A DNA stretch of 64,000 nucleotides. It comes from Rhodocyclales bacterium. GTDB taxonomy: Bacteria > Pseudomonadota > Gammaproteobacteria > Burkholderiales > Rhodocyclaceae. Below are positions 1,910-62,933 of the stretch, piece after piece. The position numbers and the translations under genes were made by a program. Location of the stretch: the NCBI GenBank assembly GCA_016235805.1, contig JACRIY010000033.1, forward strand, positions 1-64,000. Direction: 5' to 3'. How positions within the stretch are numbered: position 1 is the first letter of the stretch; each line of letters starts with the position of its first letter. A model generated the notes under the pieces. The model was not told where the DNA came from, searched no databases, and saw only the letters and a list, made by a program, of their open reading frames with translations.

Positions 1910-2695
1910 ATGAGCGACTCTTTCGCCGTGCCGCCGGCGCCGACTTCCGGCGCCACCTCGCTGCCAAACGTGCGCCGCATCGGGTTTTCCGCACCCCTGC
2001 GCTGGCTGGGGCTCGGTTGGCGGGATCTCTGGCGGCAACCGGCGGCGAGCCTGTTCTACGGCATTGCGATCGCGGTGACCGGTGCCGTGATACTGGGTGT
2101 CACCGCCAGCCTGCCCTATCTCTTTGCCGCCGCCATTACCGGCTTCCTGCTGGTGGCCCCGATGCTCGCGGCCGGGCTTTACGAACTCTCGCGCCGCTAC
2201 CTGGCCGGCGAACCTGCGGCGCTGACGGATTCCATGCTGGCCTGGCGACGCAATCCTTCGGCCCTGGTCGGTTTCGGCCTGCTCTCGATCCTCGCCGGAA
2301 CGGCCTGGCAGGTCGCCTCGGTGGTGATCGTGGCGCTGTTCTACAAGGGGCCGGCGCTGGCGCCGCAAGCGATGATCATCGAGGTCCTGGTCAATCCCCA
2401 GCATTACCTGATGTTCTTCATCTACATGTGCAGCGGCGGCCTGCTTGCTGCGGTGGTGTTTGCGCTGAGCGTGGTATCGATGCCGATGCTGGTCGATCGC
2501 CGCAGCGACCTGCTGGCCGCATTGTCCACCAGTGTCAATGCGGTGGCCGAGAATCCGCTTCCACTGGCATTCTGGGCGGCGCTGCTGATGCTGCTGACGG
2601 GGCTGGGTTTCGCCACCGCGCTGCTGGGCCTGATCGTGGTCATGCCCTGGCTCGGCCATGCCAGTTTCCATGCCTACAAGGAGCTGGTCGAGTAG
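1910..2695 (+). CDS. DUF2189-type integral membrane protein
   Basis: A 261-residue protein with six or so hydrophobic segments spread over residues 45-255. It resembles the DUF2189 family of predicted inner-membrane proteins of unknown function. The conserved FYGIAIAVTG and GFLLVAPMLAAGLYELSRR segments are visible. It starts 22 bases after purC. Near its N-terminus it contains a minus-oriented copy of the window's 21-bp dispersed motif (1924-1944), read here as AVPPAPT. Confidence 0.75.
   Translation: MSDSFAVPPAPTSGATSLPNVRRIGFSAPLRWLGLGWRDLWRQPAASLFYGIAIAVTGAVILGVTASLPYLFAAAITGFLLVAPMLAAGLYELSRRYLAGEPAALTDSMLAWRRNPSALVGFGLLSILAGTAWQVASVVIVALFYKGPALAPQAMIIEVLVNPQHYLMFFIYMCSGGLLAAVVFALSVVSMPMLVDRRSDLLAALSTSVNAVAENPLPLAFWAALLMLLTGLGFATALLGLIVVMPWLGHASFHAYKELVE
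1924..1944 (-). repeat. 21-bp dispersed motif, copy 1
   Basis: A perfect match to the consensus on the minus strand with variable bases GC. It lies at codons 5-12 of the DUF2189 gene and is read antisense to that gene as VPPAPT. Confidence 0.85.
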
Positions 2696-2794
2696 GCGGC
2701 ACAAGTACCGACGGCGCAGGCCGCGCGCCGGGTGCCCTTGCGTTTTCCGGGCTTCGCCCCAACCTGCAGAACCATTCCCCATCCCAGGACAGAA

Positions 2795-9644: not shown

Positions 9645-10440
9645 GGTCGGCCAGCGAATTGGCGAGGCGCACGTAGTCCGCCACCGGGATGTCCTCGGCG
9701 CGCGCCGTCGGTGGAATGCCCAGCGCGGTGAGCGCGGCTTCGTCGACAAAGCCGCGCAGGGTGTTGCGCAGCATCTTGCGCCGTTGGGAGAACGCCGCGG
9801 TGACCACTTTGGCAAACAGATCGGCGTCGCTTGCCGTACCGCCAGCGCCGACTCTTGAGAAATCGACGGGAATCATGCGCACGATGGCCGAGTCGACCTT
9901 GGGCGGCGGGTTGAAGGCGCCGGGCGGCACGACGAACAAGCGCTCCATGTGGAAGCGGTACTGCAGCATTACCGAGAGCCGGCCGAAATCCTTGCTGCCG
10001 GGTTCGGCCACCATGCGGTCGACCACTTCCTTCTGCAGCATGAAGTGCATGTCATACACCAGCGGCGCGAACTGCACCAGGTGGAACAGCAGCGGGCTGG
10101 AAATGTTGTAGGGCAGGTTGCCGACGATCTTGAGCCGGCCTGCGGCCTTGAGGCTGGCGAAATCGAATTGCAGCGCGTCGCCTTCGTGGATGCTCAGGCG
10201 CTCGGGCGGGAAGCGCTCCCGCAGGCGGGCGATCAGGTCGCGATCGATTTCGACCACGTGCAGGTGGTCGCTGCGCTCCAGCAATGGTTCGGTGATGGCG
10301 CCGAGGCCGGGGCCGATCTCGACCACGGTGTCGCCGGCGCGCGGATCGATCGCATCGACGATCTTGCGGATCACGCCGTCCGACACCAGGAAGTTCTGGC
10401 CAAAACGACGGCGGGCGACGTGCCCGGCCACGGACTTCAT
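9631..10440 (-). CDS. ksgA: 16S rRNA dimethyladenosine transferase
   Basis: It dimethylates the two adjacent adenosines in the 3' hairpin of 16S rRNA. The 269-residue protein has the RRRFGQNFL start, the SAM motif [12 protein letters not shown] (about 40-51), the [11 protein letters not shown] catalytic loop, and the [12 protein letters not shown]-terminal signature. The chain contains the peptide VGAGGTA (about residues 197-203), encoded by a copy of the 21-bp motif in a region that is variable in the family. Its ATG overlaps the stop of the amidotransferase gene by four bases. Confidence 0.97.
9832..9852 (-). repeat. 21-bp dispersed motif, copy 2
   Basis: It matches the consensus (variable bases GT; last base A). 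It is sense within ksgA, read as VGAGGTA, and preceded by AAGA. Confidence 0.85.
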
Positions 10441-11340: not shown

Positions 11341-12290
11341 GAGGCCATGTCGATCGCGGCGTCGACGGCGGCGAACAGGCTGGTCGGCGACGCCTTGCCG
11401 CTGCCGGCGAGATCGAGCGCGGTGCCGTGGTCGACCGAGGTGCGGATGATCGGCAGGCCGAGCGTGACGTTGATGCCTTCGTCGAAGGCGGCGTACTTCA
11501 ACACGGCGAGGCCCTGATCGTGGTACATCGCCAGTTGCGCGTCGGAACCGGCAAGCACATTACGGGTGAAAAGTGTGTCGGCCGGCAGCGGGCCGACCAG
11601 GTCCATGCCTTCCCCGCGCAGTTTTTCCAGTACCGGGGCGATCACCTCGATCTCTTCGCGCCCCATGTGGCCGCCTTCGCCGGCATGGGGGTTGAGCCCA
11701 GCCACCAGGATGCGCGGCGCGGCGATGCCGAACTTGATTTGCATATCGGCGTGGAGGATGCGCAGTGTGGTTTCCAGGTCGTCGCGCGTGATGGCGGCCG
11801 GAACGTCCTTCAGCGCCAGGTGGGTGGTGGCCAGCGCCACACGCAGGCCCGCGCCGGCCAGCATCATCACCACCCTGGGCGTGGCGGTGCGTTCTGCAAG
11901 GTATTCGGTATGGCCGCTGAACGCGATGCCGGCATCATTGATGACGCCCTTGTGCACCGGCGCAGTGACCATCGCCACGTATTCTCCGGCAGCGCATCCG
12001 TCGAGCGCCGCGTCGAGCATGTCGAGCACGTAGGCCGCGTTGGCGGTGGCGAGCCGTCCCGCCAGCGCCGACTCTCGCAGCGGGACATGGCGAATCTCGA
12101 TGCGGCTTGCGTCGAGCCCCAACTGCTGCGCGCGTGCGGCGAGCAGCTTGCGGTCGCCCAACACCACCAGCCGCGCCGGCCAAACCCGCTCGGCCAGTCG
12201 CAGGCAGATGTCCGGCCCGATGCCGGCGGGCTCGCCCGACGTGACGGCGATGGGCAGCGGTTCAGCGCTCTTCGTTGCGGTATTCGACAT
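11220..12290 (-). CDS. pdxA: 4-hydroxythreonine-4-phosphate dehydrogenase
   Basis: An NAD-dependent enzyme of pyridoxal phosphate biosynthesis. The 356-residue protein shows [12 protein letters not shown] at the start, the PVHKGVIN and GHTEYLA metal/substrate segments, [10 protein letters not shown], and [11 protein letters not shown]. The usual length is about 330; the last 35 or so residues (proline- and arginine-rich) are encoded by an intergenic repeat and are unlike the family. The ATG at 12290 overlaps the end of surA by 29 bases. A 21-bp motif copy encodes ESALAGR near residue 75. Confidence 0.95.
12052..12072 (-). repeat. 21-bp dispersed motif, copy 3
   Basis: It matches the consensus with variable bases GG and final T. 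It is sense within pdxA but in a different frame from the VGAG copies: read as ESALAGR. It is preceded by GAGA. Confidence 0.8.
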
Positions 12291-17612: not shown

Positions 17613-18378
<766 letters not shown>

Positions 18379-18384
18379 CGATCG

Positions 18385-19740
18385 ATGGATACGATCCCCC
18401 CTTCCGTAAGTATCGACTACGCGCCGTATCGCCAGCGCCGACTGCTGCTGGTCGAGCGCATGAAGGCAAGCGGCGGCGGCGTCGCCCTGATTCCGACCGC
18501 GCCCGAACAGACCCGCAACCGCGACACGCATTTCCCCTACCGCGCCGACAGCTATTTCCAGTACCTGACCGGGTTCACCGAACCGGAGGCCGTGCTGGTG
18601 CTCGCGGTCGGCCGCGGCGACGCGCCGCCGCAGGCGATCCTGTTCTGCCGCGAAAAGAACCTCGAGCGCGAAATCTGGGACGGCTTTCGCCACGGACCGG
18701 ACGGCGCGCGCGAGGCCTTCGGTTTCGACGCCGCGCATCCGGTCGCGGAACTCGACGCCAAGCTTGCGGAGTTGCTTGCCGACCAGCCGGCGCTGTGGTT
18801 TTCCATCGGCCACGATACGGGCTGGGACCAGCGCATCGCCGCCGCGCTGAACAAGGTGCGCGCCGAAAGCCGCAGCGGCAAGCGCGCGCCGGCGGCCATC
18901 CGCGACGTGCGCGCCGAGCTGGATGCAATGCGCCTGGTGAAGGACGCCACCGAACTGGCGACCATGCGTCGCGCCGCCGAAATTTCCGCGGGCGCCCATC
19001 GACGGGCGATGCGTTTCGTCGCGCCCGGCCGTTACGAGTACGAAGTCGAGGCCGAGTTGCTGCACGAGTTCCGCCGCCACGGCTGCGAGTACCCGGCCTA
19101 TACCTCGATCGTCGCCGGCGGCGCCAATGCCTGCGTCCTGCATTACGTCGGCAACGACCAGGTGCTGAAGGACGGCGACCTGCTGCTGATCGATGCCGGC
19201 GGCGAACTCGGCGGCTATGCGTCCGACATCACGCGCTGCTTTCCGGTCAATGGGCGTTTCAGCGGGCCGCAGGCCGACATCTACGACCTGGTGCTCGATG
19301 CGCAGGCCGCCGCCATCGGGGCGCTGCGTCCCGGGGCCACTTTCGCCGCCCCCCACGACGCCGCGCTCAGGGTGCTGGCCCAGGGCATGATCGACATGAA
19401 GTTGCTGACCGGTTCGCTCGATGCCGTGCTCGAATCGGAAAGCTACAAGCGCTTCTACATGCACCGCACCAGCCACTGGCTGGGCAAGGACGTGCACGAT
19501 GCCGGCGAGTACAAGGAGGGCGAGCACTGGGCGCCCCTGGCGCCGGGCATGGTGCTGACCATCGAGCCCGGCTGCTACATCCGCCCGGCCGACGACGTTC
19601 CCGAAGCTTTCTGGAACATCGGCGTGCGCATCGAGGACGATGCCGTGGTCACCGCCGACGGCTGCGAAATCATCACCGAGGCCGCACCGAAGAAGATCGC
19701 CGACATCGAAGCGCTGATGCGCGATGCCCGTGGCGCCTGA
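18385..19740 (+). CDS. pepP: Xaa-Pro aminopeptidase P
   Basis: A manganese aminopeptidase that removes the N-terminal residue before proline. The 451-residue protein has an N-terminal AMP domain and a C-terminal pita-bread domain with the metal ligands in DAGGELGGYASDITR (two Asp), HRTSHWLGKDVHD (His), IEPGCYI (Glu) and IEDDAVV (Glu). The pepP-ubiH order is conserved in proteobacteria. The ATG at 18385 follows TATAAT directly. Codons 13-19 contain a minus-oriented 21-bp motif read as PYRQRRL, which fits the family's normal sequence. Confidence 0.95.
   Translation: MDTIPPSVSIDYAPYRQRRLLLVERMKASGGGVALIPTAPEQTRNRDTHFPYRADSYFQYLTGFTEPEAVLVLAVGRGDAPPQAILFCREKNLEREIWDGFRHGPDGAREAFGFDAAHPVAELDAKLAELLADQPALWFSIGHDTGWDQRIAAALNKVRAESRSGKRAPAAIRDVRAELDAMRLVKDATELATMRRAAEISAGAHRRAMRFVAPGRYEYEVEAELLHEFRRHGCEYPAYTSIVAGGANACVLHYVGNDQVLKDGDLLLIDAGGELGGYASDITRCFPVNGRFSGPQADIYDLVLDAQAAAIGALRPGATFAAPHDAALRVLAQGMIDMKLLTGSLDAVLESESYKRFYMHRTSHWLGKDVHDAGEYKEGEHWAPLAPGMVLTIEPGCYIRPADDVPEAFWNIGVRIEDDAVVTADGCEIITEAAPKKIADIEALMRDARGA
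18422..18442 (-). repeat. 21-bp dispersed motif, copy 5
   Basis: A perfect match on the minus strand (variable bases AT), antisense to pepP, which reads it as PYRQRRL. It lies 302 bp from copy 4, facing it. Confidence 0.85.
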
Positions 19741-20989
19741 CAGCTCCGCGAGCGCAGCGAGCCAGAATAGTTACCCCTTTCCTAGGGAAGGGGGGCAGGG
19801 GGATGGTGCTTCAATTTCCGCAAGGGGGGCGCTGGCGCCCCCCCTTTCTGGGAAGCGGGGCCGGGGGGATAGCAGTCCAGTTCGCGGCCTCGCCGCCGAC
19901 AATAGCGACCCATCGGTCGCCATTGTCGGCGGCGGGCCGGCAGGGATGGCGCTTGCGCTTGCGCTGCGCCTTCACGGTGTAAGCGCCGAAATCTTCGAGG
20001 CGCGCGAACGCGCCGCGGTACGCAACGACCAGCGGGTCCTCGCGCTCTCCGAAGGCTCGCGCCAGATCCTCGACTGGCTCGGCGCCTGGTCCGGCCTGTC
20101 GGCGACGGCGATCGAAACCATCCACATTTCGCAGCGCGGCGGCTTCGGCCGCACGCTGCTGTGCGCGTCCGAACTTGGGCTCGACGCGCTCGGCTGGGTG
20201 TTGCCGGCGCGCGACCTGATCGTTGCGCTCGACGCCGCGGCAGCCAATTCGGGAATCGTCTACCGCGAATCGGCAAGAGTCGGCGCCGGCGATACGGCGA
20301 ATTTTTCGCTGACGGCCTGGGCCGAAGGCATGGTCGAGCCCGGCGCCGGCACCCGGCGCGACTACGGGCAGCACGCGGTGTTGTGCAATGTCGGCATCGA
20401 TGGACCGCATGGCAACGTCGCCTGGGAACGCTTCACCGGCGAAGGGCCGGTGGCGTTATTGCCGCTCGGCGAAGGCTATTCGGTGGTGCTCACCTGCGAC
20501 GACGCAATTGTTGACGAGGTCAGGTCGCTCGACGACGCGGCCTTCCTCGTGCTGCTGCAAAGGCGTTTCGGCAACCGTCACCGCTTCGTCTCGGCAACGC
20601 CGCGGGTGTCCTACCCGCTCGGGCTGCGCTTTCGGCCCGATCCGGTCGGCGCGCGCCAGGTTTGGCTGGGCAACGCGGCGCAGACCCTGCATCCTGTTGC
20701 CGGGCAGGGCTTCAACCTGGCCCTGCGCGACATCTGGCAACTCGCGCGCCAACTTGGTGCGGCAACCGACCCCGGGGCGCCGGAGGTGCTGGCCGGGTAT
20801 GCGCGGGGGCGACGCGCGGATCGGCGCGGAGCGATAGCGTTTACCGACCTGCTGATCGACGGCTTTGCTTCCGATTTCGCGCCGCTCAGGCATGTTCGGG
20901 GCGCTGGCTTGCTGGCCATGGACATGGTGCCGGAATTGCGCGGCTTTGTTGCCAAGCGAATGATTTATGGCGCCCGTGCCTGGCCGTGA
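19724..20989 (+). CDS. ubiH: UbiH-family FAD monooxygenase with repeat-encoded N-terminus
   Basis: A ubiquinone-biosynthesis hydroxylase of the UbiH/UbiF/UbiI family; which ring position it acts on is not clear. It has VAIVGGGPAG (FAD), the RVLALSEGSR motif, and GNAAQTLHPVAGQGFNLALRD. The only start codons in frame before the FAD motif are ATG 19724 and GTG 19730, both overlapping the pepP stop. About 60 residues of low-complexity sequence from a GC-rich repeat therefore precede the domain. A 21-bp motif copy encodes VGAGDTA near residue 186-192. The pepP-ubiH linkage supports the role. Confidence 0.82.
   Translation: MPVAPDSSASAASQNSYPFPREGGQGDGASISARGALAPPLSGKRGRGDSSPVRGLAADNSDPSVAIVGGGPAGMALALALRLHGVSAEIFEARERAAVRNDQRVLALSEGSRQILDWLGAWSGLSATAIETIHISQRGGFGRTLLCASELGLDALGWVLPARDLIVALDAAAANSGIVYRESARVGAGDTANFSLTAWAEGMVEPGAGTRRDYGQHAVLCNVGIDGPHGNVAWERFTGEGPVALLPLGEGYSVVLTCDDAIVDEVRSLDDAAFLVLLQRRFGNRHRFVSATPRVSYPLGLRFRPDPVGARQVWLGNAAQTLHPVAGQGFNLALRDIWQLARQLGAATDPGAPEVLAGYARGRRADRRGAIAFTDLLIDGFASDFAPLRHVRGAGLLAMDMVPELRGFVAKRMIYGARAWP
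19741..19875. repeat. GC-rich repeat block between pepP and ubiH (family E-related)
   Basis: It begins with GCGAGCGCAGCGAGC and then has a CCCCTTTCC-TAG-GGAAGGGG hairpin and a second, very strong palindrome (19822-19846: AAGGGGGGCGC against GCGCCCCCCCTT). The start resembles the block at 25340-25420. It stays open in the ubiH frame and is presumably translated. Confidence 0.65.
20279..20299 (+). repeat. 21-bp dispersed motif, copy 6
   Basis: A perfect match (variable bases AT), sense within the ubiH-like gene, read as VGAGDTA and preceded by AAGA. Confidence 0.85.
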
Positions 20990-25431: not shown

Positions 25432-26580
25432 ATGATTCTTCCCCCCGCCACGCTCGGCATGCTCGGTGGCGGCCAGTTGGGCCGCTTCTTCGTCATTGCC
25501 GCCCACGAACTGGGCTACCGCGTGGTGGTGCTCGATCCCGACGCGCAGAGCCCCGCGGGGCGCATCGCCGACCGGCACCTGGTGGCGGCTTACGACGATC
25601 CGGATGCGCTGAACCAGATGGCCGAATCCTGCGCCGCAGTGACTACCGAATTCGAAAACGTGCCTGCCGGCAGCCTCGCCTACCTGTCGAAATTCCTGCC
25701 GGTGCGGCCGTCTGCCGATGCCGTCGCCATCAGCCAGAATCGCAGCGCCGAGAAGGGGTTCCTGAGGCAGCACGGCTTTCCCCACGCCCCCTATGCCGAC
25801 ATTCGCAGCGAAGAAGACATCGCACAGGCCAATGCGGGACTGTTCCCCGGCATCCTCAAGGTGGCGCGCTTCGGCTACGACGGCAAGGGGCAGATCCGGG
25901 TCGCGGGCCGCGACGAGGCACTGCTGGCGTTTCGCCAGTTGAAGAACGAGCCCTGCGTGCTGGAGCAGATGCTGGCACTGGACTACGAGGTGTCGGTGGT
26001 GCTGTCGCGCGACCAGTCGGGCAGCGTGAAGTGCTTCCCGGTCGCGGAGAACAGCCATCGCCATGGCATTCTGGACGTCTCCATCGTGCCGGCGCGCACC
26101 GGCGGCTGCATGGCCGGCGACGCCCAGGAAATCGCCGAGGGCATCGCGCAGGAAATGGGCTATGGCGGCACGCTCGCCGTCGAGTTCTTCGTCGTGCGCG
26201 GGCGCTTGCTGGTCAACGAAATGGCGCCGCGGCCGCACAACTCAGGACATTTCAGCATCGACGCCTGCGTCACCAACCAGTTCGAGCAGCAGGTGCGGGC
26301 GCTGACCGGCCTGCCGCTGGGCGACGCGCGCGCGCATTCGGCATCCGTCATGGTGAACCTGCTGGGCGACCTCTGGTACCTGCGCGACCCGCAGCACAGC
26401 CACGAGCCGGACTGGACCCAGCTGCTGGCCGTGCCCAACCTCAAGCTTCACCTCTACGGCAAGCACCACGCCCGGCCGGGGCGCAAGATGGGCCACTTCA
26501 CCGTGATCGGCAACGATGCGGAGGATGTCCAAAAGTCGGCGCTGGCGGCACGGCGGCTGATCGGCATCCGCGATGAATGA
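25432..26580 (+). CDS. purK: N5-carboxyaminoimidazole ribonucleotide synthase
   Basis: It carboxylates AIR with ATP and bicarbonate. The 382-residue ATP-grasp enzyme has LGMLGGGQLGR at the start, VTTEFENVP, KVARFGYDGKGQ and the EMAPRPHNSGHFSIDA block. No purE is visible in the window. The last residues, [16 protein letters not shown], include a 21-bp motif copy in the SALA frame. It overlaps tsaC by eight bases. Confidence 0.96.
   Translation: MILPPATLGMLGGGQLGRFFVIAAHELGYRVVVLDPDAQSPAGRIADRHLVAAYDDPDALNQMAESCAAVTTEFENVPAGSLAYLSKFLPVRPSADAVAISQNRSAEKGFLRQHGFPHAPYADIRSEEDIAQANAGLFPGILKVARFGYDGKGQIRVAGRDEALLAFRQLKNEPCVLEQMLALDYEVSVVLSRDQSGSVKCFPVAENSHRHGILDVSIVPARTGGCMAGDAQEIAEGIAQEMGYGGTLAVEFFVVRGRLLVNEMAPRPHNSGHFSIDACVTNQFEQQVRALTGLPLGDARAHSASVMVNLLGDLWYLRDPQHSHEPDWTQLLAVPNLKLHLYGKHHARPGRKMGHFTVIGNDAEDVQKSALAARRLIGIRDE
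26535..26555 (+). repeat. 21-bp dispersed motif, copy 7
   Basis: A perfect match (variable bases GC), sense near the end of purK, read as KSALAAR and preceded by AAAA. Confidence 0.85.
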
Positions 26581-33394: not shown

Positions 33395-36016
<2,622 letters not shown>

Positions 36017-36018: not shown

Positions 36019-36039
36019 GTCGGCGCCGACGGTACGGCG
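36019..36039 (+). repeat. 21-bp dispersed motif, copy 8 (intergenic)
   Basis: It matches the consensus with one change (GAC for GGC; variable bases GT). It starts two bases after the alaS stop and is preceded by AAGA. It is the only copy outside a gene. Confidence 0.8.
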
Positions 36040-38909: not shown

Positions 38910-39902
38910 TCAGCGCAATGCCTGCAGGGTTTGCGCGACGTGCTCGGGCGCGATGCCGTTCATGCAGTCGAAATGTCCGAGCGGGCATTCGCGCTTGAAG
39001 CAGGGGCTGCACGACAGATTCTTCGAGACGATGCGTGCCCGTGGCGACAGGGGCGGCGTGTATGTCGGCGACGAAGAACCGTAGAGTGCCACCAGCGGCC
39101 GATCGAGCGCCGCGGCGACATGCATCAGGCCCGAATCGTTGCTCACCACGCCTTCGGCCGACGCGATCAGGTCGATGGCCTGTTCCAGCGTGCTGCGCCC
39201 GCAAAGGTTGAGCGCCGACCCTCGCGCCGCGTCGGCGATTTCATCGCCGACGGCGGCATCCTTGTCCGAGCCGACCAGCCATGCGGGATTCTCCGGCGTG
39301 GCGACCAGTCTGGCCAGCGCTGCGAAGTGACGTGCCGGCCAGCGTTTGGCCGGGCCGTACTCGGCGCCCGGGCAGAACACCACGGGCCGCGCAGCGGCGG
39401 GCAGGCCCAGCGCTTCGCGCGCCGCCTGCTGTTGCCCGGGCGTCGAATTCAGTCGCGGTTGCGGCAGGTCCGCCGGCAAGGGGCCGGCCAGCGCCGCATA
39501 GCGCTGCGCCAGTTGCGGATGGCGGACGGGGTCGAGCCGGTGGCGCTCGTTGAGCAGCAGGTAGCGCGACTCGCCCTGGTAACCGATGCGATGGGGTATG
39601 CGAGCGAAGTAGGGGACCAGTGCCGACTTCCATGAGTTCGGCAAGACGAAGGAATGCGAGAAGTCGGCGCTGGCGAGACGGTGTCCGAGGGCACGGCGTG
39701 CGCCGAAATTGAAGTCGCCGTGGCGGAAGGGGTTGGCGATGACCGCGTCGACTTCGGACATGCGCCCCAGCAGCGGCGCCGACCAGGCCGCGGCCAGCAC
39801 TTCGATGCGGGCCGTCGGATGATTGCGCTTGAGCAGCGCGAGGAGTGGCTGGGCGAGGATCGTGTCACCGATCCAGGACGGTGCGACGACCAGTATCTTC
39901 AC
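38910..39902 (-). CDS. waaF: ADP-heptose:LPS heptosyltransferase II
   Basis: It adds the second L-glycero-D-manno-heptose to the LPS inner core. The 330-residue GT9 protein has KILVVAPSWIGDTILAQPL at the start, LPNSWKSALVPYFA, CPGAEYGPAKRWP, and VSNDSGLMHVAAALDRPLVALYGSSSP, which are characteristic. A 21-bp motif is read antisense as LASADF just before the LPNS segment, where it agrees with the family sequence. The upstream CHCC zinc-finger gene is 33 bases away. Confidence 0.94.
   Translation of the reverse strand: MKILVVAPSWIGDTILAQPLLALLKRNHPTARIEVLAAAWSAPLLGRMSEVDAVIANPFRHGDFNFGARRALGHRLASADFSHSFVLPNSWKSALVPYFARIPHRIGYQGESRYLLLNERHRLDPVRHPQLAQRYAALAGPLPADLPQPRLNSTPGQQQAAREALGLPAAARPVVFCPGAEYGPAKRWPARHFAALARLVATPENPAWLVGSDKDAAVGDEIADAARGSALNLCGRSTLEQAIDLIASAEGVVSNDSGLMHVAAALDRPLVALYGSSSPTYTPPLSPRARIVSKNLSCSPCFKRECPLGHFDCMNGIAPEHVAQTLQALR
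39663..39683 (+). repeat. 21-bp dispersed motif, copy 10
   Basis: It matches the consensus except T for C near the end (variable bases AG). It is antisense to waaF (LASADF) and preceded by GAGAA. Confidence 0.8.
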
Positions 39903-46124: not shown

Positions 46125-47344
46125 CGCTGCTGGTTTCAAGAGTCGGCGCTGGCGCCACGGCGGCTGGCAGCATCCTTGCGGTGCGTGTCTGGCCGGCGCG
46201 CGACTACACGCGGGTGACGCTGGAGCATGACCGGCCGATCAGCTACAGCCACCTGCTGGTAAAGGACCCGGAGCGACTGGTAGTGGACATCGAGGGCATC
46301 GAGTTCAATTCCGTGCTGCAGTCGCTGCCGTCCAAAATCATCGAAGCCGATCCCTACATCAGGCTGATCCGCGCCGGACGCAACAAGCCGGGCGTGGTGC
46401 GCGTGGTGATCGAGCTCAAGGGCGAGGTCAAGCCCCAGGTCTTCGCGCTGAAGCCGGTGGGCGAATACGGCCACCGGCTGGTGCTCGACCTCTTTCCCGC
46501 CGAACCGGTCGATCCGCTGATGGCGCTGCTGGAAAAGTCCGACGGGTCGGCCCCGAAGGTAGAGACCAGGCAGGCAGGCAAGCCCCCGGTCGAAGCTGAC
46601 AAGCCCGAACCGAAGCCCGATGTCGCGCGCATGCTGACCATCGTCCTCGATCCCGGACACGGCGGCGAGGATCCGGGCGCGATCGGTCGCGGCGGCAGCT
46701 ACGAAAAGCATGTGACGCTCTCCGTCGCGCGCCGCCTCAAGGAAAAGATCGATGCCACGCCGAACATGCGTTCCGTGCTGACGCGCGACGGCGACTATTT
46801 CATTCCCCTGCAAAGCCGCGTGCAGAAGGCGCGCCGGGTGCAGGCAGACCTCTTCGTTTCGGTCCATGCCGATGCCTTCGTCAAACCGACGGCGCGCGGA
46901 TCCAGCGTCTTCGTCCTTTCGGAGACCGGCGCTTCCAGTTCGGCGGCGCGCTGGCTTGCGAACAAGGAGAATTCGGCCGACCTGGTCGGCGGGGTCAACC
47001 TGGGCGTCAAGGACCCTTACCTCGCACGCACCCTGCTGGACCTGTCGCAGACCGCGACCATCAACGACAGCCTCAAGCTGGGCAAGGACGTGCTGGGCGA
47101 ACTGGGGCGCATCAACACCCTGCACAAGGCCCACGTGGAACAGGCCGGCTTCGCCGTGCTGAAGGCGCCGGACATTCCCTCGATCCTGATCGAAACCGCC
47201 TTCATCTCCAATCCCGAGGAAGAGAAACGGCTCAACGACGAGGCCTACCAGGACCAGATGGCCGAGGCCATCCTGCGCGGCATCCGTCGCTACTTCGCGA
47301 AGAATCCCCCGCTGGCGAAGTCCAAGCTGGCGCGGCTGGATTGA
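46079..47344 (+). CDS. amiC: N-acetylmuramoyl-L-alanine amidase AmiC
   Basis: It cleaves septal peptidoglycan for daughter-cell separation. The 421-residue protein has a twin-arginine-type signal (RRREVLKFAAAG, residues 3-14), an AMIN domain (about 32-140), a linker, and a zinc Amidase_3 domain (about 182-405) with VLDPGHGGEDPGAIG, SVHADAF and the catalytic Glu in ETAFISN. The 21-bp motif encodes VGAGATA (about residues 22-28) right at the end of the signal peptide, where cleavage after an Ala is plausible. Confidence 0.95.
   Translation: MPRRREVLKFAAAGLTLLVSRVGAGATAAGSILAVRVWPARDYTRVTLEHDRPISYSHLLVKDPERLVVDIEGIEFNSVLQSLPSKIIEADPYIRLIRAGRNKPGVVRVVIELKGEVKPQVFALKPVGEYGHRLVLDLFPAEPVDPLMALLEKSDGSAPKVETRQAGKPPVEADKPEPKPDVARMLTIVLDPGHGGEDPGAIGRGGSYEKHVTLSVARRLKEKIDATPNMRSVLTRDGDYFIPLQSRVQKARRVQADLFVSVHADAFVKPTARGSSVFVLSETGASSSAARWLANKENSADLVGGVNLGVKDPYLARTLLDLSQTATINDSLKLGKDVLGELGRINTLHKAHVEQAGFAVLKAPDIPSILIETAFISNPEEEKRLNDEAYQDQMAEAILRGIRRYFAKNPPLAKSKLARLD
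46142..46162 (+). repeat. 21-bp dispersed motif, copy 12
   Basis: A perfect match (variable bases CC), sense in amiC, read as VGAGATA at the signal-peptide end, and preceded by AAGA. Confidence 0.85.
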
Positions 47345-48323: not shown

Positions 48324-51114
48324 TTACCGCAAGACCCTCAACATGCCCGACACGGCGTTTCCGATGCGCGGCGACCTCGCCAAGCGGGAACCCGGCTGGA
48401 TCGCCCGGTGGCAGGAGCAGAAGCTCTACCAGAAGATCCGCGCCGCGGCCAAGGGGCGCCCGCGCTTCGTCCTGCACGACGGTCCGCCCTACGCCAATGG
48501 CGACATCCACATCGGCCACGCGGTGAACAAGATCCTCAAGGACATCATCGTCCGCTCCAAGACGCTGGCCGGCTTCGACGCGCCCTATGTGCCGGGTTGG
48601 GACTGCCATGGCCTGCCGATCGAACACCAGATCGAGAAGGCCCACGGCAAGCACCTGCCCGCCGACAAGGCGCGCGAGTTGTGCCGAATTTTCGCCGCCG
48701 AACAGGTAGAGCGGCAGAAGAAGGACTTCATCCGCCTCGGCGTGCTGGGCGATTGGGGCAATCCCTACTTGACCATGGCCTTTCGCAACGAGGCCGACGA
48801 GATCCGCGCGGTGGGCGAGCTTTACACCCGCGGCTACCTGTTCAAGGGACTGAAGCCGGTGAATTGGTGCTTCGACTGCGGTTCGGCGCTGGCCGAAGCC
48901 GAGGTCGAGTACCAGGACAAGAAATCGCCGGCGATCGACGTCGGCTTTCGCCTGGCCGACGGCGAGCGCGAACGCGTGGCCCATGCCTTCGGCATCGCGG
49001 CGCTGCCCGAGGGTGACTGCTGGACGGTGATCTGGACCACCACGCCGTGGACCATCCCGTCCAACCAGGCGCTCAACATGCATCCCGAATTCACCTACGA
49101 GCTGGTCAAGACGGCGCGCGGCTGCATCATCCTCGCCGCCGAATTGCGCGGCGCGGCATTGCAGCGCTTCGGCCTCGACGGCAAGGTACTGGGCGCCTGC
49201 CAGGGCGCAGCGCTGGCCCAGGTGGCCTTCCGCCATCCGCTCTACGACCGCGCCTCGCCCGTGTATCTGGGCGACTACGTCACGCTCGACGCCGGCACCG
49301 GCATCGTGCATAGCGCGCCGGCCTATGGCCTGGAGGACTACGACTCCTGCAAGAAGCACGGCATGCACAACGACGAGATCCTCACCCCGGTGCAGGGCGA
49401 CGGCGTGTTTGCGGCCAGCCTGCCCTTCTTCGGCGGCATGTTCGTCTGGAAGGCCAATCCGGTCATCATCGAGAAGCTGGCCGAGGTCGGCGCACTGTTC
49501 GGCAGCGCAGAGATCACGCACAGCTACATGCACTGCTGGCGCCACAAGACGCCAATCATCTACCGTGCCACGACCCAATGGTTCGTCGGCATGAACCGGA
49601 TCCCCGTCGAAGGCGGCGGCACGCTGCGCGACAAGGCGCTGGCCGCCGTCGAAGCGACTACCTTCTACCCCGACTGGGGCAAGGCGCGGCTGCACGCGAT
49701 GATCGCCAACCGGCCCGACTGGTGCGTTTCGCGCCAGCGCAACTGGGGCGTACCGATTCCCTTCTTCCTGCACAAGGAGACCGGTGAGCCGCACCCGCGT
49801 ACGCTGGAACTGCTCGAATCCGTGGCGCAGAGGATCGAAAAGGAGGGCATCGACGCCTGGTTCAAGCTCGACGCGGCCGAACTGCTCGGCGCCGATGCCG
49901 TGAACTATGACAAGATGCGCGACACGCTCGATGTCTGGTTCGATTCCGGCACCACGCACAGGACGGTCTTGCGCGGCTCGCATGCCGAGGAGAGCGCCTA
50001 TCCGGCCGACCTCTACCTCGAAGGCTCGGACCAGCATCGCGGCTGGTTCCATTCCAGCTTGCTGACCGGCGCCGCGATCGACGGCCGCGCGCCGTATAAC
50101 GCACTTCTCACGCACGGCTTCGTGGTCGACGGCAAGGGCATGAAGATGTCCAAGTCGAAGGGCAACGTGGTTGCGCCGCAGAAAATCTCCGACACGCTGG
50201 GCGCCGAGATCCTGCGCCTGTGGGTGGCCAGCACCGACTACTCGGGCGAACTGTCGATCGACGAAAAGACCATCCTGCCGCGCGTGGTCGAGGTCTATCG
50301 CCGCCTGCGCAACACGCTGCGCTTCCTGCTCGCCAACACTGCCGATTTCGATCCGGCGACACAGATGCTGCCTCCCGCGCAATGGCTGGAATCCGACCGC
50401 TACGCGTTGGCCCTGACGCGGGCTTTGCAGGCGCAGTGCACGGCGGACTACGCGCGCTTCGAGTTCCACAAGGTAGTGCAGGGCCTGATGAACTTCTGCT
50501 CGGAAGACCTTGGCGCCTTCTACCTCGACATCCTCAAGGACAGGTTGTACACCGCGGCGGAGAACTCGCGGGCTCGGCGTTCGGCGCAAAGCGCGTTGTG
50601 GCACATCCTGCAAACCGTGACGCGCCTCATGGCGCCGGTGCTCAGCTTCACCGCCGAAGAAATCTGGACGACGCTGAAGCAGGGCGACAGCGTGATGCTG
50701 TCGACCTGGCACGAACTGCCCCAGCAGGCCGAAGAGTCGGCGCTGGTGGCACGGTGGCAGGCGATACGCGTACTGCGCGGCGACGTCGCCCGGGTGCTCG
50801 AGGAACTGCGTTCGGCCGGCAAGATCGGTTCCTCGCTGCAGGCTGAAGTCAGCCTGAGCGTCGCGCCGGATACCTACGACCTGCTGGCCGCGCTGGGGGA
50901 CGACCTGAAGTTCGTCCTCATCTGCTCGAAGGTGACGCTTGAAAAAGTCGGCGCCGGCGACACGGCGATTTCGGCGACGGCAAGCCCCCACGCGAAGTGC
51001 GGGCGCTGCTGGCACTGGCGCGAGGACGTCGGCCACGATGCCGGGCATCCCGAGTTGTGCGGACGCTGCACGTCCAACCTGTTCGGCGCCGGCGAGGCGC
51101 GCGAGATTGCCTAG
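48316..51114 (+). CDS. ileS: Isoleucyl-tRNA synthetase
   Basis: A class I synthetase of 932 residues: [19 protein letters not shown] (HIGH, about 61-64), the CP1 editing domain with TTPWT and [21 protein letters not shown] (about 608-612), and the C-terminal zinc ribbon with CGRCW and ELCGRC. Two 21-bp motif copies lie in the C-terminal part: one read ESALVAR (about 808-814), in the anticodon-binding helices, and one VGAGDTA (about 878-884), just before the zinc ribbon in a poorly conserved linker. Confidence 0.96.
50736..50756 (+). repeat. 21-bp dispersed motif, copy 13
   Basis: It matches the consensus with two changes (GTG for GCG twice; variable bases GC). It is sense in ileS in the SALA frame and preceded by AAGA. 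Confidence 0.75.
50947..50967 (+). repeat. 21-bp dispersed motif, copy 14
   Basis: A perfect match (variable bases AC), sense in ileS, read as VGAGDTA and preceded by AAAAA. Confidence 0.88.
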
Positions 51115-52135: not shown

Positions 52136-53068
52136 ATGCAGATACTCCTTGCGAACCCCCGTGGTTTCTGCGCCGGCGTCGAACGCGCGATCGCCATCGT
52201 CGAACGCGCGCTGGAAAAGTTCGGTGCACCGATCTATGTCCGCCATGAAGTGGTGCACAACCGCTACGTGGTCGATGGCCTCAAGGCCAAGGGGGCCGTG
52301 TTCGTCGAAGACCTCGACGAGGTTCCGGACGGCGCCACGGTGATATTCAGCGCCCACGGCGTGCCGCAGTCGGTGCGCATCGAAGCGGACAAGCGTGGCC
52401 TCAAGGTGTTCGACGCCACCTGCCCGCTGGTGACCAAGGTGCACCTGGAAGTGGCGCGCCTGCACAAGCAGGGCTACGAGATCGTGATGATCGGCCACAA
52501 GGGCCACCCCGAAGTGGAAGGGACCATGGGCCAGGCCACCGGCCGCATGTACCTGGTGGAGAACGTCGACGACGTCGCGTCGCTGGAAGTCGGCGCTGGC
52601 GGCACGGCGCCCCTGGCCTACGTCACGCAAACCACCCTGTCGGTCGACGACGCGCGGGTGATCGTGCACGCGCTGACGGCGCGCTTTCCGGCCATCATCG
52701 GTCCGCGCAAGGACGACATCTGTTACGCCACGCAGAATCGCCAGGATGCGGTCAAGGCGATGGCCGGCAAGGTCGACGTGGTGATCGTGGTCGGCTCGAA
52801 GAACAGTTCCAACTCCAACCGCCTGCGCGAGGTCGCGGCAATCGGCGGCGTCCCGGCCTACCTGGTCGACGGGGCGGACCAGATCGACGGCGCCTGGCTG
52901 GCGGGTAAGGGGCGGATCGGCGTCACGGCGGGCGCATCGGCGCCCGAGGTGCTGGTCAACGGCGTGGTGGAACGGCTGCGCGCCCTGGGTGCGGGCAGCA
53001 TCGAGACCCTCTCGGGTGTCGAGGAGAACGTCAATTTCCCCTTGCCCAAGGAACTGCTGGCCGGATAA
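52136..53068 (+). CDS. ispH: 4-hydroxy-3-methylbut-2-enyl diphosphate reductase
   Basis: The iron-sulfur enzyme of the last MEP-pathway step, making IPP and DMAPP. The 310-residue protein has the three cluster cysteines in [11 protein letters not shown] (about residue 12), [11 protein letters not shown] (about 96) and [11 protein letters not shown] (about 195), plus HxGHPEVEG. The 21-bp motif encodes VGAGGTA (about residues 152-158) in the variable loop just before the conserved YVTQTTLS strand. The ATG at 52136 follows GGAGG from the repeat. Confidence 0.96.
52589..52609 (+). repeat. 21-bp dispersed motif, copy 15
   Basis: A perfect match (variable bases GC), sense in ispH, read as VGAGGTA and preceded by GGAA. 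Confidence 0.87.
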
Positions 53069-56115: not shown

Positions 56116-58106
56116 GCGATACCGCCCGCGCCTTGAGTGCGCTTTGCCATCTCGACCCCGGTATGTCGATTGACCAATGGCACGCGGCAGGCCGCGCCGC
56201 CATCGCTGCCGGATTGACCATTGACGACATTGACGCCTGGAGCAGCGCCGCGCCGAACTACAAGGGACGCCGTGACGTGGAAATGCAGTTTTCCAAGGTG
56301 ACGCCCGACGGCGGCACGACGGCGGCAACGCTGTTCAAGATGGCCCTTGATGCCGGATGGCAAGACCCCGCCAAGGGGCTGCGACAAGGGCAGGGGCCGC
56401 GTCAAGCCTCACGACCGACACCCAAGCCCAAGCCGCCCGAGAAAACCGCGCCAAGGCCGAATCCGGCAGTTTCCGACCTGTGGGCCAGGTGCGAGCCGGC
56501 AAGCGCGGATCATGGCTACGTCGTCGCCAAGCGCGGCAGGCCCGACGGACTGCGAATAGTCGGCGCTGGCGACACGGCGACGGTGGCCGGCCAATCCGTC
56601 GCGGGCTGGCTGGTGGTGCCTGTCCTGTCACTGGATGGCGAACTGCGAACCCTGCAACTGATTCCGCCGCCCGGTATCGGCAAGAAACTGAACATGCCCG
56701 GCGCGCCATTCGGTGATGGCCTGTTCGTGGTGGGCGACGCGGCGAAGTCTGCCCGCCTCTACATCGTGGAAGGTATCGGCCAAGCCTGGGCAGTGCATCG
56801 GGCTACCGGGTGCGCGGCAGTGGTGGCCTTCGGTGCCGGCCGCATGGCGACGGCGGCGCAAGCCTTGCGTGCGCGGTATCCGTCGCTGCCGCTGGTGGTG
56901 GTGCCTGACCGTGGCAAGGAAAACCAAGCCGCCGCCATTGCCCGCGCTTTCGGTGGGGCGTGGATTGAGCTACCGGAAAACACGCCCGCGAACTATGACG
57001 CCAACGACTACGCGGCCGACTATGACGACGCGGCGCTGTCGGAACTGCTGGCGAACCCCAAGACCCCGCCCATGCGTTACCGCGTGATGCGCGCCGACGA
57101 GGTGGTGAACGCGCCGCCGCTGCACTGGTTGGTGCGTGGCGTACTGCCGGCCGATGGCCTCGCCGCGCTGTTTGGTGCCAGCGGATCAGGCAAGAGCTTC
57201 CTTGCCCTCGACCTTTCCGCTGCCGTGGCTGGTGGGCTGGACTGGTTCGAGTGCCGGGTGAAGGCCGCGCCTGTGGTCTATGTGGCGCTGGAAGGCGAGG
57301 CGGGATTTTCGCAACGGGTGAAGGCGTGGCAACTGCATCATGGCCGCGACCTGCCCGGTGCACTGCGCTTTGTCATGCAAGCCTTCGACCTGCGCAATGC
57401 CGACGACCTGGGCGAGATTGCCGCCGCCGTGACCGCTGCCGGTGCCGCCGCTGGCCTGCTGGTGATTGATACCCTGAACCGCGCCGCCAGTGGTGCCGAT
57501 GAAAACAGCGTGGTCGACATGGGGGCCATCATCTCCGCCGCCAAGGGGCTGCAATCGAGACTTGGCGGGCTGGTGCTGCTGGTGCATCACTCCGGCAAGG
57601 ATGCCAGCAAGGGACTGCGCGGGCATTCCAGCCTGCACGCTGCGCTTGATTCCGCCATTGAGGTTTCACGCATTGACGACCGCCGCGACTGGCGCATCGC
57701 CAAGGCCAAGGACGGCGACGACGGGGCGGCGCATCCGTTCAAGCTGGAACGGGTGGAGATTGGCGAGCATGACGACGGCGAGCCGATAACGTCCTGCGTG
57801 GTGGTGGCCGGGGAACACAAGGCCGAGTTTCGCCGCGTGCTGCCGCCCAAGTCGGGGAACATGCGGGTGATATGGGACGCCCTGGGCGAACTGCTGCGCC
57901 AGGCTGGGGACGCGCGCCCCGCCGACGCGCCCGACAGATTGCCTCTTGGCCGTCCTGCTGTGACCCTGGATGCCGCCATAGAAGGCACACGGGAACGCCT
58001 TGCCTGTGATGCCAAGCGCCGGACGGAACGCGCACAACAGGCATTGACCGGCCTGCAAGCCAAGGGGCTGATTTTGATTGACGGGGGCTATGTATGGATA
58101 CCTTGA
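56112..58106 (+). CDS. Primase/RepA-like replication protein
   Basis: A 664-residue multidomain protein: an N-terminal PriCT-like region (about 15-80), a Pro-rich linker (about 95-120), a Toprim-type primase domain (about 165-320, LYIVEGIGQAWAVH and VVVPDRG), and a RepA/RadA-like AAA ATPase (about 355-590) with Walker A GASGSGKS and LLVIDTLNR. The C-terminal part resembles a winged helix. It probably primes and unwinds at the adjacent origin-like repeats. A 21-bp motif copy encodes VGAGDTA (about 150-156) between PriCT and Toprim. Confidence 0.85.
   Translation: MSDTARALSALCHLDPGMSIDQWHAAGRAAIAAGLTIDDIDAWSSAAPNYKGRRDVEMQFSKVTPDGGTTAATLFKMALDAGWQDPAKGLRQGQGPRQASRPTPKPKPPEKTAPRPNPAVSDLWARCEPASADHGYVVAKRGRPDGLRIVGAGDTATVAGQSVAGWLVVPVLSLDGELRTLQLIPPPGIGKKLNMPGAPFGDGLFVVGDAAKSARLYIVEGIGQAWAVHRATGCAAVVAFGAGRMATAAQALRARYPSLPLVVVPDRGKENQAAAIARAFGGAWIELPENTPANYDANDYAADYDDAALSELLANPKTPPMRYRVMRADEVVNAPPLHWLVRGVLPADGLAALFGASGSGKSFLALDLSAAVAGGLDWFECRVKAAPVVYVALEGEAGFSQRVKAWQLHHGRDLPGALRFVMQAFDLRNADDLGEIAAAVTAAGAAAGLLVIDTLNRAASGADENSVVDMGAIISAAKGLQSRLGGLVLLVHHSGKDASKGLRGHSSLHAALDSAIEVSRIDDRRDWRIAKAKDGDDGAAHPFKLERVEIGEHDDGEPITSCVVVAGEHKAEFRRVLPPKSGNMRVIWDALGELLRQAGDARPADAPDRLPLGRPAVTLDAAIEGTRERLACDAKRRTERAQQALTGLQAKGLILIDGGYVWIP
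56559..56579 (+). repeat. 21-bp dispersed motif, copy 17 (inside the mobile element)
   Basis: A perfect match (variable bases AC), sense in the replication gene, read as VGAGDTA and preceded by AATA. Confidence 0.87.
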
Positions 58107-60473: not shown

Positions 60474-60479
60474 AATTCC

Positions 60480-62933
60480 ATGCCCCTGACCGACCCATCC
60501 TGCTACCACTGCGGCCTGCCGATTCCGGCCGGCGCGGAGTTTCCGGTCGAGATCGACCAGACCCGGCGCGAGATGTGTTGCGCCGGTTGCCAGGCGGTGG
60601 CGCAGGCCATCGTCGGCAACGGCCTCGGCGACTACTACCGTCATCGCGACGCCCTGCCGGAAAGCCCGCGCGAGGCGCTGCCGCAGGTGCTGGCCGATTT
60701 CGGCCTGTTCGACCATCCCGACGTGCAGAAGAACTTCGTGCGCCGGGCCGAGGGCGTGGCGGGAGAACACGAGCGCGAAGCGGCGCTGATCTTGGAGGGC
60801 ATCACCTGCGCCGCCTGCGTCTGGCTCAATGAATCCCACGTCCGACGGCAGCCCGGTGTCACCTCGGTCGACATCAACTACACCACCCGCCGCGCGCGGG
60901 TGCGCTGGGACGAGCGTGTTACGCGCTTGTCGGCCATCCTCGAAGCGATATCCGCCATCGGCTATCGCGCCCATCCCTACGATATCGGTCGGGCGGAGGA
61001 ATTGGCGCAGAAGGAGCGCAAGACGGCGCTGTGGCGGCTGTTCGTCGCCGGCTTCGGCATGATGCAGGTGATGATGTACGCCGTGCCGGTGTATCTGGCG
61101 GATGGCGACATGACGCCGGACATCGAACAACTAATGCGCTGGGCCAGCCTGATCTTGACCCTGCCGGTGATCGGATACTCTGCGGCGCCTTTCTTCGTCA
61201 GCGCCTGGCGTGACCTGAAACTGCGCCGGGTCGGGATGGACGTGCCGGTCGCGCTGGGCGTCGGCGCGGCTTTTGCCGCCAGCGTCTGGGCCACGCTGAT
61301 CGCCGCCGGCGAGGTGTATTTCGATTCCGTCACGATGTTCGTCTTCTTCCTGCTCTCGGGGCGCTATCTGGAAATGATGGCGCGGCAGCGAGCGGCGCGC
61401 AGCGTCGAAACCCTGGCCCGGGCCATTCCGGCCTTTGCCACGCGCCTTGCCAGTTGGCCGAGCAGGGCAGGCGAGGCGGACGGCGAGCGCGTTGCCGTGG
61501 CCCAGTTGAACGTCGGCGATGCCGTCCAGGTCAAGCCGGGAGAAACGATCCCGGCCGACGGCAGCGTGCTCGACGGCGTGAGCGCGGCGGATGAGTCACT
61601 GCTCACCGGCGAAAGCCGGCCGGTGCAAAAGCGCATTGGCGACGCGTTGATCGGCGGTAGCGTAAATACCTCCAGCCCGCTGGTAATGCGGGTCGAGCGC
61701 GTCGGCGAGTCGACGCGGGTCGCCGCCATCCAGCGCCTGATGGAACGCGCGGCGGCGGAAAAGCCGCGCCTGGTGGAAATGGCCGACCGCGTTGCCGGTC
61801 GATTCATCGTCGCGCTGTTGCTGCTGGCGGTGGCGACCGCGCTCGCCTGGTGGTGGCTCGATCCGTCACGTGCGCTGTGGGTCTTCGTCGCGGTGCTGGT
61901 AGTGAGTTGTCCCTGTGCGCTGTCGCTGGCGACGCCGGCTGCGCTGACCGTGGCAACCGGCGCCCTGGCCGCGCGCGGCGTTCTGGTGACGCGCGGCCAC
62001 GCCATCGAGGCGCTCGCGCGCGCCGACCACTTCGTGTTCGACAAGACCGGTACGCTCACGGTGGGGCGCATGGAACTGGTCGAGGTGATTCCGATCGCCG
62101 GCGATGCGACACGTGCGCGGGCCTTCGCGGCGGCGCTCGAACGCGGCTCGGAGCATCCGATCGCGCGGGCGCTGGCCTCTGGCGGCGCCGACGCCGGGAT
62201 TGTGGTGGACGGCTTGCGCGCCACGACCGGCGCCGGGGTCGAAGGGCGGATGAACGACTCGATCTGGCGCCTTGGTCGCCCCGATTTTGTCGCGGCACTT
62301 CACGGACAGGCGATCCCGGCCGATGCCTTGGCGGCAGTCGGCGCCGGCGATACGGTGATTGCGCTCGGCAACACGGAAGGATGGGAGGCGTTTTTTCGTC
62401 TTAGCGATGCACTTCGGCCCGAAGCGAAGGCGATGGCGGCCAGCCTCATGGCAGCCGGCATTCGGCTCTCGATATTCAGCGGCGATGCGCCGGCAGCAGC
62501 GGCTAGGGTTGGTGCGGCGCTGGGCATCGACGACGCCCGCGGCGGACTCTCGCCGGAAGGCAAGCACGCAGCGCTCAAGGCGTTTCAGGAAGCCGGGGCG
62601 ACGGTGGCCATGGTCGGCGACGGGGTCAACGATGCGCCGGTACTGGCGCAAGCACAGGTTTCGATCGCCATGGGCGGCGGCGCCGACTTGGCCCGCGCCA
62701 ATGCCGACGTGGTGCTGCTCGGCAACGACCTGCAGGCATTGCCCGACGGGCTGGCCCTGGCGCGCCGAACCTTGCGCATCGTGAAACAGAACCTGGTCTG
62801 GGCCTTTGCCTACAACTTCCTTGCGATTCCGCTGGCCATGACCGGCTGGGTGACGCCCTGGATGGCCGGCATCGGCATGTCGGCCAGTTCGCTGCTGGTG
62901 GTGCTCAATGCATTGAGGCTGCAACGGCGATAA
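60480..62933 (+). CDS. ccoI: Copper-transporting P-type ATPase for cbb3 oxidase assembly
   Basis: It delivers copper for cytochrome cbb3 oxidase maturation (also called FixI). The 817-residue protein has the N-terminal zinc-ribbon-like CYHCGLP (8-14) and CCAGC, a heavy-metal domain with ITCAAC (about 107-112), membrane helices, the SCPCALSLATP metal path (about 476-486), DKTGTLT (about 520) and GDGVNDAP. A 21-bp motif encodes VGAGDTV (about 620-626) in the nucleotide-binding domain. Its stop overlaps the ccoS ATG by one base. Confidence 0.95.
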   Translation: MPLTDPSCYHCGLPIPAGAEFPVEIDQTRREMCCAGCQAVAQAIVGNGLGDYYRHRDALPESPREALPQVLADFGLFDHPDVQKNFVRRAEGVAGEHEREAALILEGITCAACVWLNESHVRRQPGVTSVDINYTTRRARVRWDERVTRLSAILEAISAIGYRAHPYDIGRAEELAQKERKTALWRLFVAGFGMMQVMMYAVPVYLADGDMTPDIEQLMRWASLILTLPVIGYSAAPFFVSAWRDLKLRRVGMDVPVALGVGAAFAASVWATLIAAGEVYFDSVTMFVFFLLSGRYLEMMARQRAARSVETLARAIPAFATRLASWPSRAGEADGERVAVAQLNVGDAVQVKPGETIPADGSVLDGVSAADESLLTGESRPVQKRIGDALIGGSVNTSSPLVMRVERVGESTRVAAIQRLMERAAAEKPRLVEMADRVAGRFIVALLLLAVATALAWWWLDPSRALWVFVAVLVVSCPCALSLATPAALTVATGALAARGVLVTRGHAIEALARADHFVFDKTGTLTVGRMELVEVIPIAGDATRARAFAAALERGSEHPIARALASGGADAGIVVDGLRATTGAGVEGRMNDSIWRLGRPDFVAALHGQAIPADALAAVGAGDTVIALGNTEGWEAFFRLSDALRPEAKAMAASLMAAGIRLSIFSGDAPAAAARVGAALGIDDARGGLSPEGKHAALKAFQEAGATVAMVGDGVNDAPVLAQAQVSIAMGGGADLARANADVVLLGNDLQALPDGLALARRTLRIVKQNLVWAFAYNFLAIPLAMTGWVTPWMAGIGMSASSLLVVLNALRLQRR
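62337..62357 (+). repeat. 21-bp dispersed motif, copy 18
   Basis: It matches the consensus except T for C near the end (variable bases AT). It is sense in ccoI, read as VGAGDTV. Confidence 0.8.

Follow-up and report, generated by a model that had tools for sequence, protein, structure and literature searches.

A DNA motif of about 26 bp, dispersed through the genome of a Rhodocyclales bacterium and the genomes of its congeners, is probably a DNA-uptake sequence, i.e., a label by which a DNA receptor on the cell surface recognizes self DNA during natural transformation. The motif was found in a stretch of 64,000 nt (positions 1..64,000 of contig JACRIY010000033.1, assembly GCA_016235805.1; hereafter, the window), for which genes were called with a simple caller. 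An earlier note on the window had described a 21-bp word and offered several roles for it, of which a DNA-uptake signal fits best. In the genome-based comparisons the motif has the properties of an uptake sequence, with less clear results for scarcity in acquired DNA, for ComEA and for a co-varying receptor. A more specific proposal, toward which the sequence comparisons incline us slightly, is that a Rhodocyclaceae-like genus possesses a third, independently evolved self-DNA recognition code: a word of about 26 bp and 33 bits with three GGCG blocks and an A-tract, at least two dialects, one near-motifless species, and a receptor possibly unlike ComP or FimT.

Structure of the motif

The full motif of about 26 bp reads RARA-GTCGGCGC(T/C)GGCG-NN-ACGGCG-A or, with the core written in one block, RARA-GTCGGCGCYGGCG-NN-ACGGCG-A, as derived from sites with 0-1 mismatch in the genome to which the window belongs (the source genome; 73 sites) and in the complete genome of a congener, G002 (67 sites). 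At these sites GTCGGCGC is preceded by (C), R, A, R, A and followed by T in 73-75% of cases, otherwise by C, and then by GGCG; T is rare at the first and A at the second of the two variable spacer bases, and A follows ACGGCG at about half of the sites. From one GGCG block to the next, the starts are 6 and then 8 bp apart. Information amounts to about 33 bits for the whole motif and 28 for the 21-bp core (164 sites). Position statistics were obtained from samples (462 kb of the source genome, or 862 kb of the source genome and G002 together) rather than from whole genomes, and most of the genomes compared are incomplete assemblies.

In the source sample, sites with 0, 1, 2, 3 and 4 mismatches numbered 42, 31, 17, 14 and 85, which indicates a distinct population followed by background. 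The A-rich 5' flank, which the earlier note had missed although the rest of its description of the core holds, separates the two. Among the 164 sites with 0-2 mismatches in the 862 kb, 118 have A at position -1 as well as at -3 (63/83, 40/57 and 15/24 for 0, 1 and 2 mismatches), compared with only 10 of the 838 sites with 3-5 mismatches (0/29, 1/149 and 9/660).

Abundance and restriction to one genus

The source genome (3.83 Mb, 80% complete) contains 256 perfect copies (130 + 126) and none of the reversed word, so that the signal, whose restriction to the window had been named as a possible refutation, is genome-wide. The density in the source sample is about one per 5 kb, and scaling by the ratio of sites with 0-2 mismatches to perfect ones in that sample (90:42) gives an estimate of about 550 copies in total. 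Perfect copies occur in all 30 congeners, at 4-371 each. Among 30 further genomes of the family or order, four carry one copy and 26 carry none; among 398 genomes of the phylum, the source genome included, four have a match, the three others with one copy each, and the reversed word gave one match in each of two genomes of this set. Over-representation in the bearer and near-absence in relatives, as expected of an uptake sequence, are thus both observed. The seven single copies outside the genus have a full (L009, L011, L119, L120), partial (L010, L012) or absent (L118) A-rich flank; hence, part of them may stem from DNA that the genus has exported, and others may be chance matches.

The motif also emerges without prior definition. 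The top enriched 13-mer found de novo falls within it in samples of the source genome, G002, G021, G027 and G001, in the last two as a form with GTT in place of GTC, and the list for G015 contains a 10-mer of the GTT form. No substitute word was prominent in samples of 40-107 kb from the near-motifless congener G016 or from six sister genera, a search that a rare dialect could escape; in some of these genomes the top words resemble tandem or CRISPR-like repeats, and the list for G033 holds a motif fragment, GGCGCTGGCG, weakly enriched (10 copies, z 4.1).

A conserved DNA word

As a codon-preserving control, 30 synonymous-codon shuffles were made of the 430 genes called in the source sample. 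Genic copies with 0, 1, 2 and 3 mismatches numbered 34, 23, 15 and 12, against shuffle means of 0.8, 5.2, 10.4 and 20.9 and maxima of 2, 9, 15 and 30. The codon-preserving expectation, which the earlier note had set as its other possible refutation, is therefore far exceeded at 0-1 mismatch, and the excess is limited to these classes, since the count at 2 mismatches equals the shuffle maximum and that at 3 lies below the mean. All six frames are used, with sense frame 0 accounting for 29 of the 72 genic sites; a reading-frame bias has been described for uptake sequences as well (PMC2346458). The claim that the DNA and not a peptide is conserved is thus upheld by the codon shuffles, by the use of six frames and by orthologue alignments; the variability at the NN and R/Y positions and the flank test are further signs of selection for a DNA word.

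Of the 90 sites with 0-2 mismatches in this sample, 72 lie in genes, 15 between genes and 3 at gene edges. Because 90% of the bases are coding, the 18 sites outside genes or at edges exceed the share of about 10% that is non-coding (P = 0.003). The motif therefore occurs in both orientations, mostly in genes and yet enriched in permissive or intergenic places, which is the distribution expected of an uptake sequence.

Copies in the window

Scanning the window with the core pattern GTCGGCGCYGGCGNNACGGCG at up to 3 mismatches gave 22 places, compared with a mean of 0.75 and a maximum of 5 in dinucleotide shuffles. The places at 8688, 45738 and 55055 (3 mismatches) are probably due to chance, as is that at 9120 (2 mismatches, without the A-rich flank). 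The flank test, together with orthology at 45351, leaves 18 copies that are real, from 1924 to 62357 (coordinates, strand, mismatches and context):

1924..1944, minus strand, perfect: gene for a BPSS1780-like membrane protein (match under the NCBIfam cut-off), antisense
9832..9852, minus strand, 1 mismatch: ksgA (rsmA), sense frame 0
12052..12072, minus strand, 1 mismatch: pdxA, sense frame 2
18099..18119, plus strand, 2 mismatches: murU-like gene, sense frame 0
18422..18442, minus strand, perfect: Xaa-Pro aminopeptidase-like gene, antisense
20279..20299, plus strand, perfect: ubiH-like gene, sense frame 0
26535..26555, plus strand, perfect: purK, close to the 3' end, sense frame 2
35021..35041, plus strand, 1 mismatch: alaS, sense frame 0
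36019..36039, plus strand, 1 mismatch: intergenic, between convergent alaS and a phosphoglucomutase/phosphomannomutase-like gene, 2 bp past the alaS stop
37054..37074, plus strand, 1 mismatch: phosphoglucomutase/phosphomannomutase-like gene, antisense
39663..39683, plus strand, 1 mismatch: rfaF (heptosyltransferase II), antisense; common to G001, G008, G017, G023 and L039
45351..45371, plus strand, 2 mismatches: antisense in the gene at 44553-45638; A-rich flank lost here, present in many congeners
46142..46162, plus strand, perfect: amiC-like gene near its start, sense frame 0
50736..50756, plus strand, 2 mismatches: ileS, sense frame 2; one mismatch fixed by a Trp codon
50947..50967, plus strand, perfect: ileS, sense frame 0
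52589..52609, plus strand, perfect: ispH, sense frame 0; most outgroup genes are shorter here by about 6 bp
56559..56579, plus strand, perfect: primase-like gene of an island, sense frame 0
62337..62357, plus strand, 1 mismatch: heavy-metal P-type ATPase gene, sense frame 0; common to G012, G017, G022 and G023

The earlier note had likewise counted 18 copies, eight of them perfect and 17 in genes. The copies lie on both strands, and the frames that it gave (sense 0 and 2; antisense 0, 1 and 2) are those occupied. Its statement that most copies lie in essential genes stands only in part: the hosts include housekeeping genes, namely ileS (two copies), alaS, ispH, ksgA, pdxA, murU-like, purK, ubiH-like, rfaF and amiC-like genes, but also the island primase-like gene and the heavy-metal ATPase gene.

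Conservation of sites and origin of copies

Seven positions between 39 and 62 kb of the window are common to congeners, and motif columns are more conserved than their flanks at five of the seven aligned sites. For the site in the amiC-like gene (46142), 23 sequences were compared, and 21 of them match the motif with 0-2 mismatches; the exceptions are the outgroup L040 and G016, whose 4-kb contig stops short of the site; it is recognizable in all 20 aligned sequences of the genus, the source included, with GTT in G001, G025 and G027.

Copies appear to have arisen in two ways. At ileS 50736, the outgroup L040 carries a near-match, and the one mismatch that the copies still have in common falls on a conserved Trp codon. 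Here G016 and G003, the latter with a divergent ileS, have different coding sequence of equal length, and at the valS site G016 has a motif-less coding sequence of equal length; substitution is thus shown at constrained sites. The ispH stretch (52589), about 6 bp longer than in most outgroups, and ileS 50947, in a length-variable tail, point to length change in tolerant stretches. The amiC-like site also lies in a length-variable stretch. As separate observations on ileS, inserts of about 93 bp that leave the frame open occur near residue 430 in G005, G016, G017, G019, G023, G025 and G027 (about 165 bp in G027), and the G003 gene (L211) is 72% identical to that of the source and branches well away from the genus in the ileS tree. 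The FimT of G003, in contrast, is 81% identical, a pattern of mosaic inheritance.

A probable dialect switch and a possible loss

Three genomes use a second spelling. In G001, G027 and G015 the GTT form has 195, 225 and 219 perfect copies and the GTC form 26, 26 and 34, whereas the remaining 28 genomes of the genus have 0-5 GTT copies each. In the valS region (20 kb) the three are mutually 90-93% identical and other pairs 81-85%, which makes a single GTC-to-GTT switch likely in spite of the ileS tree, where G015 stands beside G007, a genome with 0 GTT copies; that placement is probably due to recombination. GTT replaces GTC in place at 39663 (G001), at 46142, 50736 and 52589 (G001 and G027), and at two valS-region sites in all three genomes. 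There are exceptions: G001 retains GTC at 45351, and G025, with 0 perfect GTT copies, has GTT at 46142. The dialect appears to follow phylogeny and to have changed in place, as is expected of an uptake sequence, with one switch seen.

G016, a 99% complete assembly, has 4 GTC copies and 0 GTT copies. In the ileS tree it groups with G019 (191 copies) with support of 0.91, which makes motif loss in G016 plausible but does not prove it.

Spacing, polarity and inverted pairs

Copies are spaced more evenly than at random: in the source and G002 samples, 14 of 121 gaps are shorter than 1 kb, against 26.5 expected (P 0.001), and the source sample alone gives P 0.0015. Strand polarity was sought in 20 stretches of 20 kb from G002, nine spanning 190-1730 kb and nine 1900-3440 kb, and no bias by replichore was found (17 plus and 23 minus versus 13 plus and 13 minus). 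This disfavors a polar version of the chromosome-segregation motif that had been offered as one possible role, and the orientation bias of FtsK-orienting polar sequences (KOPS) or Chi is lacking in this sample.

In 1.62 Mb of partly overlapping genus sequence, seven pairs of motifs lie within 80 bp of each other, four inverted and three direct. Three of the inverted pairs are real; they are 23-27 bp apart, fold at -43 to -57 kcal/mol as terminator-like hairpins, and are all located between convergent called genes. In the remaining inverted pair and in each of the three direct pairs, 3-mismatch background is involved. An additional inverted pair, 26 bp apart, was seen in G001 (C62). By structure and convergent position, the close inverted pairs appear to be placed as terminators, and inverted-pair terminators, together with permissive core sites and dialects, have been described for the DNA uptake sequence (DUS) of Neisseria (PMC2397512, PMC3630211).

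Proposed mechanism

A surface receptor, probably a type IV pilin, would read the motif during natural transformation, so that motif-carrying DNA would be bound and imported better and, after recombination, tagged alleles would replace untagged ones. Substitutions would thereby turn near-matches in genes into the full word, and motif copies would accumulate in tolerant stretches. The contact surface may consist of the A-tract and the three GGCG blocks, spaced 6 and 8 bp from one another, with NN as a weakly contacted spacer. If the receptor changed, all sites would be drawn toward a different spelling, for which the GTT clade would be an example; if its specificity were lost, sites would decay, possibly the case in G016.

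Competence genes, acquired DNA and observations against uptake

Several observations weigh against an uptake sequence. The word of about 26 bp is far longer than the known uptake tags of 9-12 nt, and we know of no longer uptake word. Motif columns are less conserved than the flanks at 52589 and 50947, and G002 taken by itself shows the even spacing only weakly (count-based P 0.11). One perfect copy (56559) is located inside a 6-kb island (53145-59522) beside a tRNA-Thr gene, which carries a tyrosine integrase (53553-54698) and a primase-like gene (56112-58106) and was not seen in the compared congeners that are collinear on both sides; in Neisseria, DUS are reportedly lacking in recently acquired genes (PMC2397512). 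ComEC, present in 30 of the 31 genus genomes and in all 6 other family genomes searched, occurs equally in G016 and in the motif-less sister genera and hence does not track the motif. ComEA gave 0 matches over the NCBIfam cut-off in 8 genomes, and an HHH_3 search found no ComEA-like periplasmic protein in motif-bearing species; these yielded only frames of about 800 aa, one of which resembles Tex, or a weak partial match, and nothing in the complete G002. Separate, shorter HHH_3 matches were obtained in G016, G034 and G036. Since G002 and G019 lack even the match of about 800 aa, the ComEA search may miss proteins. FimT, compared by eye, is highly divergent and of several types among species with the same motif; it is therefore not an obvious reader, and as a candidate receptor it shows no visible tracking of the motif.

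The presence of ComEC, although uninformative about the motif, is in line with uptake, as are two further findings. DprA was found in 6 of 8 genus genomes, both misses being assemblies 80-83% complete, and each of six species has 8-19 prepilin-type matches. No clear receptor candidate was found among the other pilins compared in these six species. Extreme diversity marks the minor-pilin genes fimT and pilE, which seem to be swapped between congeners (L389-L418) and in several species lie near ileS-ispH. A conserved pilin of 170 aa stands beside a hypervariable short pilin (L449, L454, L462, L469, L476), and in G016 it does not cluster with its counterparts from the other four species; the short pilin, which resembles MshA, is not a clear receptor. 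Very short pilins of 59-62 aa (L456, L461, L472, L480) are arranged in tandem in some congeners.

The full motif was also observed in at least 120 stretches of contigs classed as viral (L269-L348 among the matches listed), which are possibly phages or misclassified host DNA. Among the matches listed, 28 of 80 such loci hold two or more copies at up to 2 mismatches, and L287 has five copies at steps of 316, 316, 316 and 385 bp. Plasmid and phage collections contained no motif-bearing relative, with weak or partial matches only, in 15 plasmids (13 of Bradyrhizobium and 2 of Sphingomonas) and one phage.

Alternative explanations

Even spacing, genome-wide occurrence on both strands, a length typical of a protein footprint and positional conservation would all suit the binding site of a chromosome-organizing or nucleoid protein that folds or positions the chromosome. 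We consider this unlikely: the absence of replichore polarity in G002 speaks against polar use of the KOPS or Chi type, the near-absence in G016 and a one-base switch in one clade would be unusual for an architectural site, and copies also occur in contigs classed as viral. A self-DNA mark serving another purpose, such as protection from nucleases or defense systems or the Chi-like loading of recombination enzymes, would account for the self-specific abundance and the dialect, but no strand polarity was found in the G002 sample, and 33 bits far exceeds known Chi or modification sites; this explanation we regard as less likely still.

The spread of a short mobile element, about 21-27 bp long, through the genome, another role proposed earlier, could explain the length differences at ispH 52589, the amiC-like site and ileS 50947. 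However, the NN spacer and the R/Y positions vary between copies, sites are common to congeners, GTT forms arose in place, and differences at ileS 50736 and at the valS site are due to substitution without indels; near-identical copies with clean insertion boundaries were not found, and an origin of this kind is highly improbable. Practically negligible is the explanation by chance, or by codon or peptide bias in a GC-rich genome (VGAGxTA, SALA). The preference for sense frame 0 would agree with such a bias, but dinucleotide and synonymous-codon shuffles reject it (0.8 perfect copies against 34 seen), occupancy of six frames rejects peptide conservation, and 18 of 90 sites lie outside genes or at their edges while relatives outside the genus have 0-1 copies. 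Transformation-associated DNA uptake thus remains our preferred interpretation.

Comparison with known systems

KOPS and Chi are short genome-wide words in coding sequence that are strand-polar by replichore. The present motif resembles them in being genome-wide and in coding sequence and differs in being long and, in the G002 sample, non-polar. The remark that no motif like it had been described agrees with the literature searched (PubMed Central, PMC), in which no matching motif was found. Uptake sequences as a kind of system are already known in two other families, to which this word is unrelated and than whose words it is longer. If true, repeated evolution of such codes would be demonstrated by a third case unrelated to the other two, and 31 genomes with two spellings and one near-absence would provide a natural experiment on selfish drive versus selected "safe sex", a new route to the receptor by co-variation, and a watermark by which DNA could be followed out of the genus.

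According to a 2025 paper (PMC12616744), uptake sequences are known solely from Neisseriaceae and Pasteurellaceae. Like the Neisseriaceae DUS, a 12-mer with GCCGTCTGAA whose receptor is ComP, the motif has many copies in both orientations, permissive core-gene sites, terminator-like inverted pairs and clade dialects (PMC3630211, PMC2397512). Unlike the DUS, it is unrelated in sequence, is about 26 bp long with an internal variable spacer and an A-tract, belongs to another family, and is less dense, at about one per 5 kb; no ComP-like receptor was identified here, and no search was aimed at ComP. With the uptake signal sequence (USS) of Pasteurellaceae, of AAGTGCGGT or ACAAGCGGT type, for which ComN/PpdA is the predicted receptor, it shares an abundant self word and two dialect types (PMC3630211, PMC12616744), as well as a reading-frame bias (PMC2346458). 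It differs from the USS in its unrelated sequence, in the order to which its bearer belongs, and in length, the USS core being 9 nt as against a word of about 26 bp.

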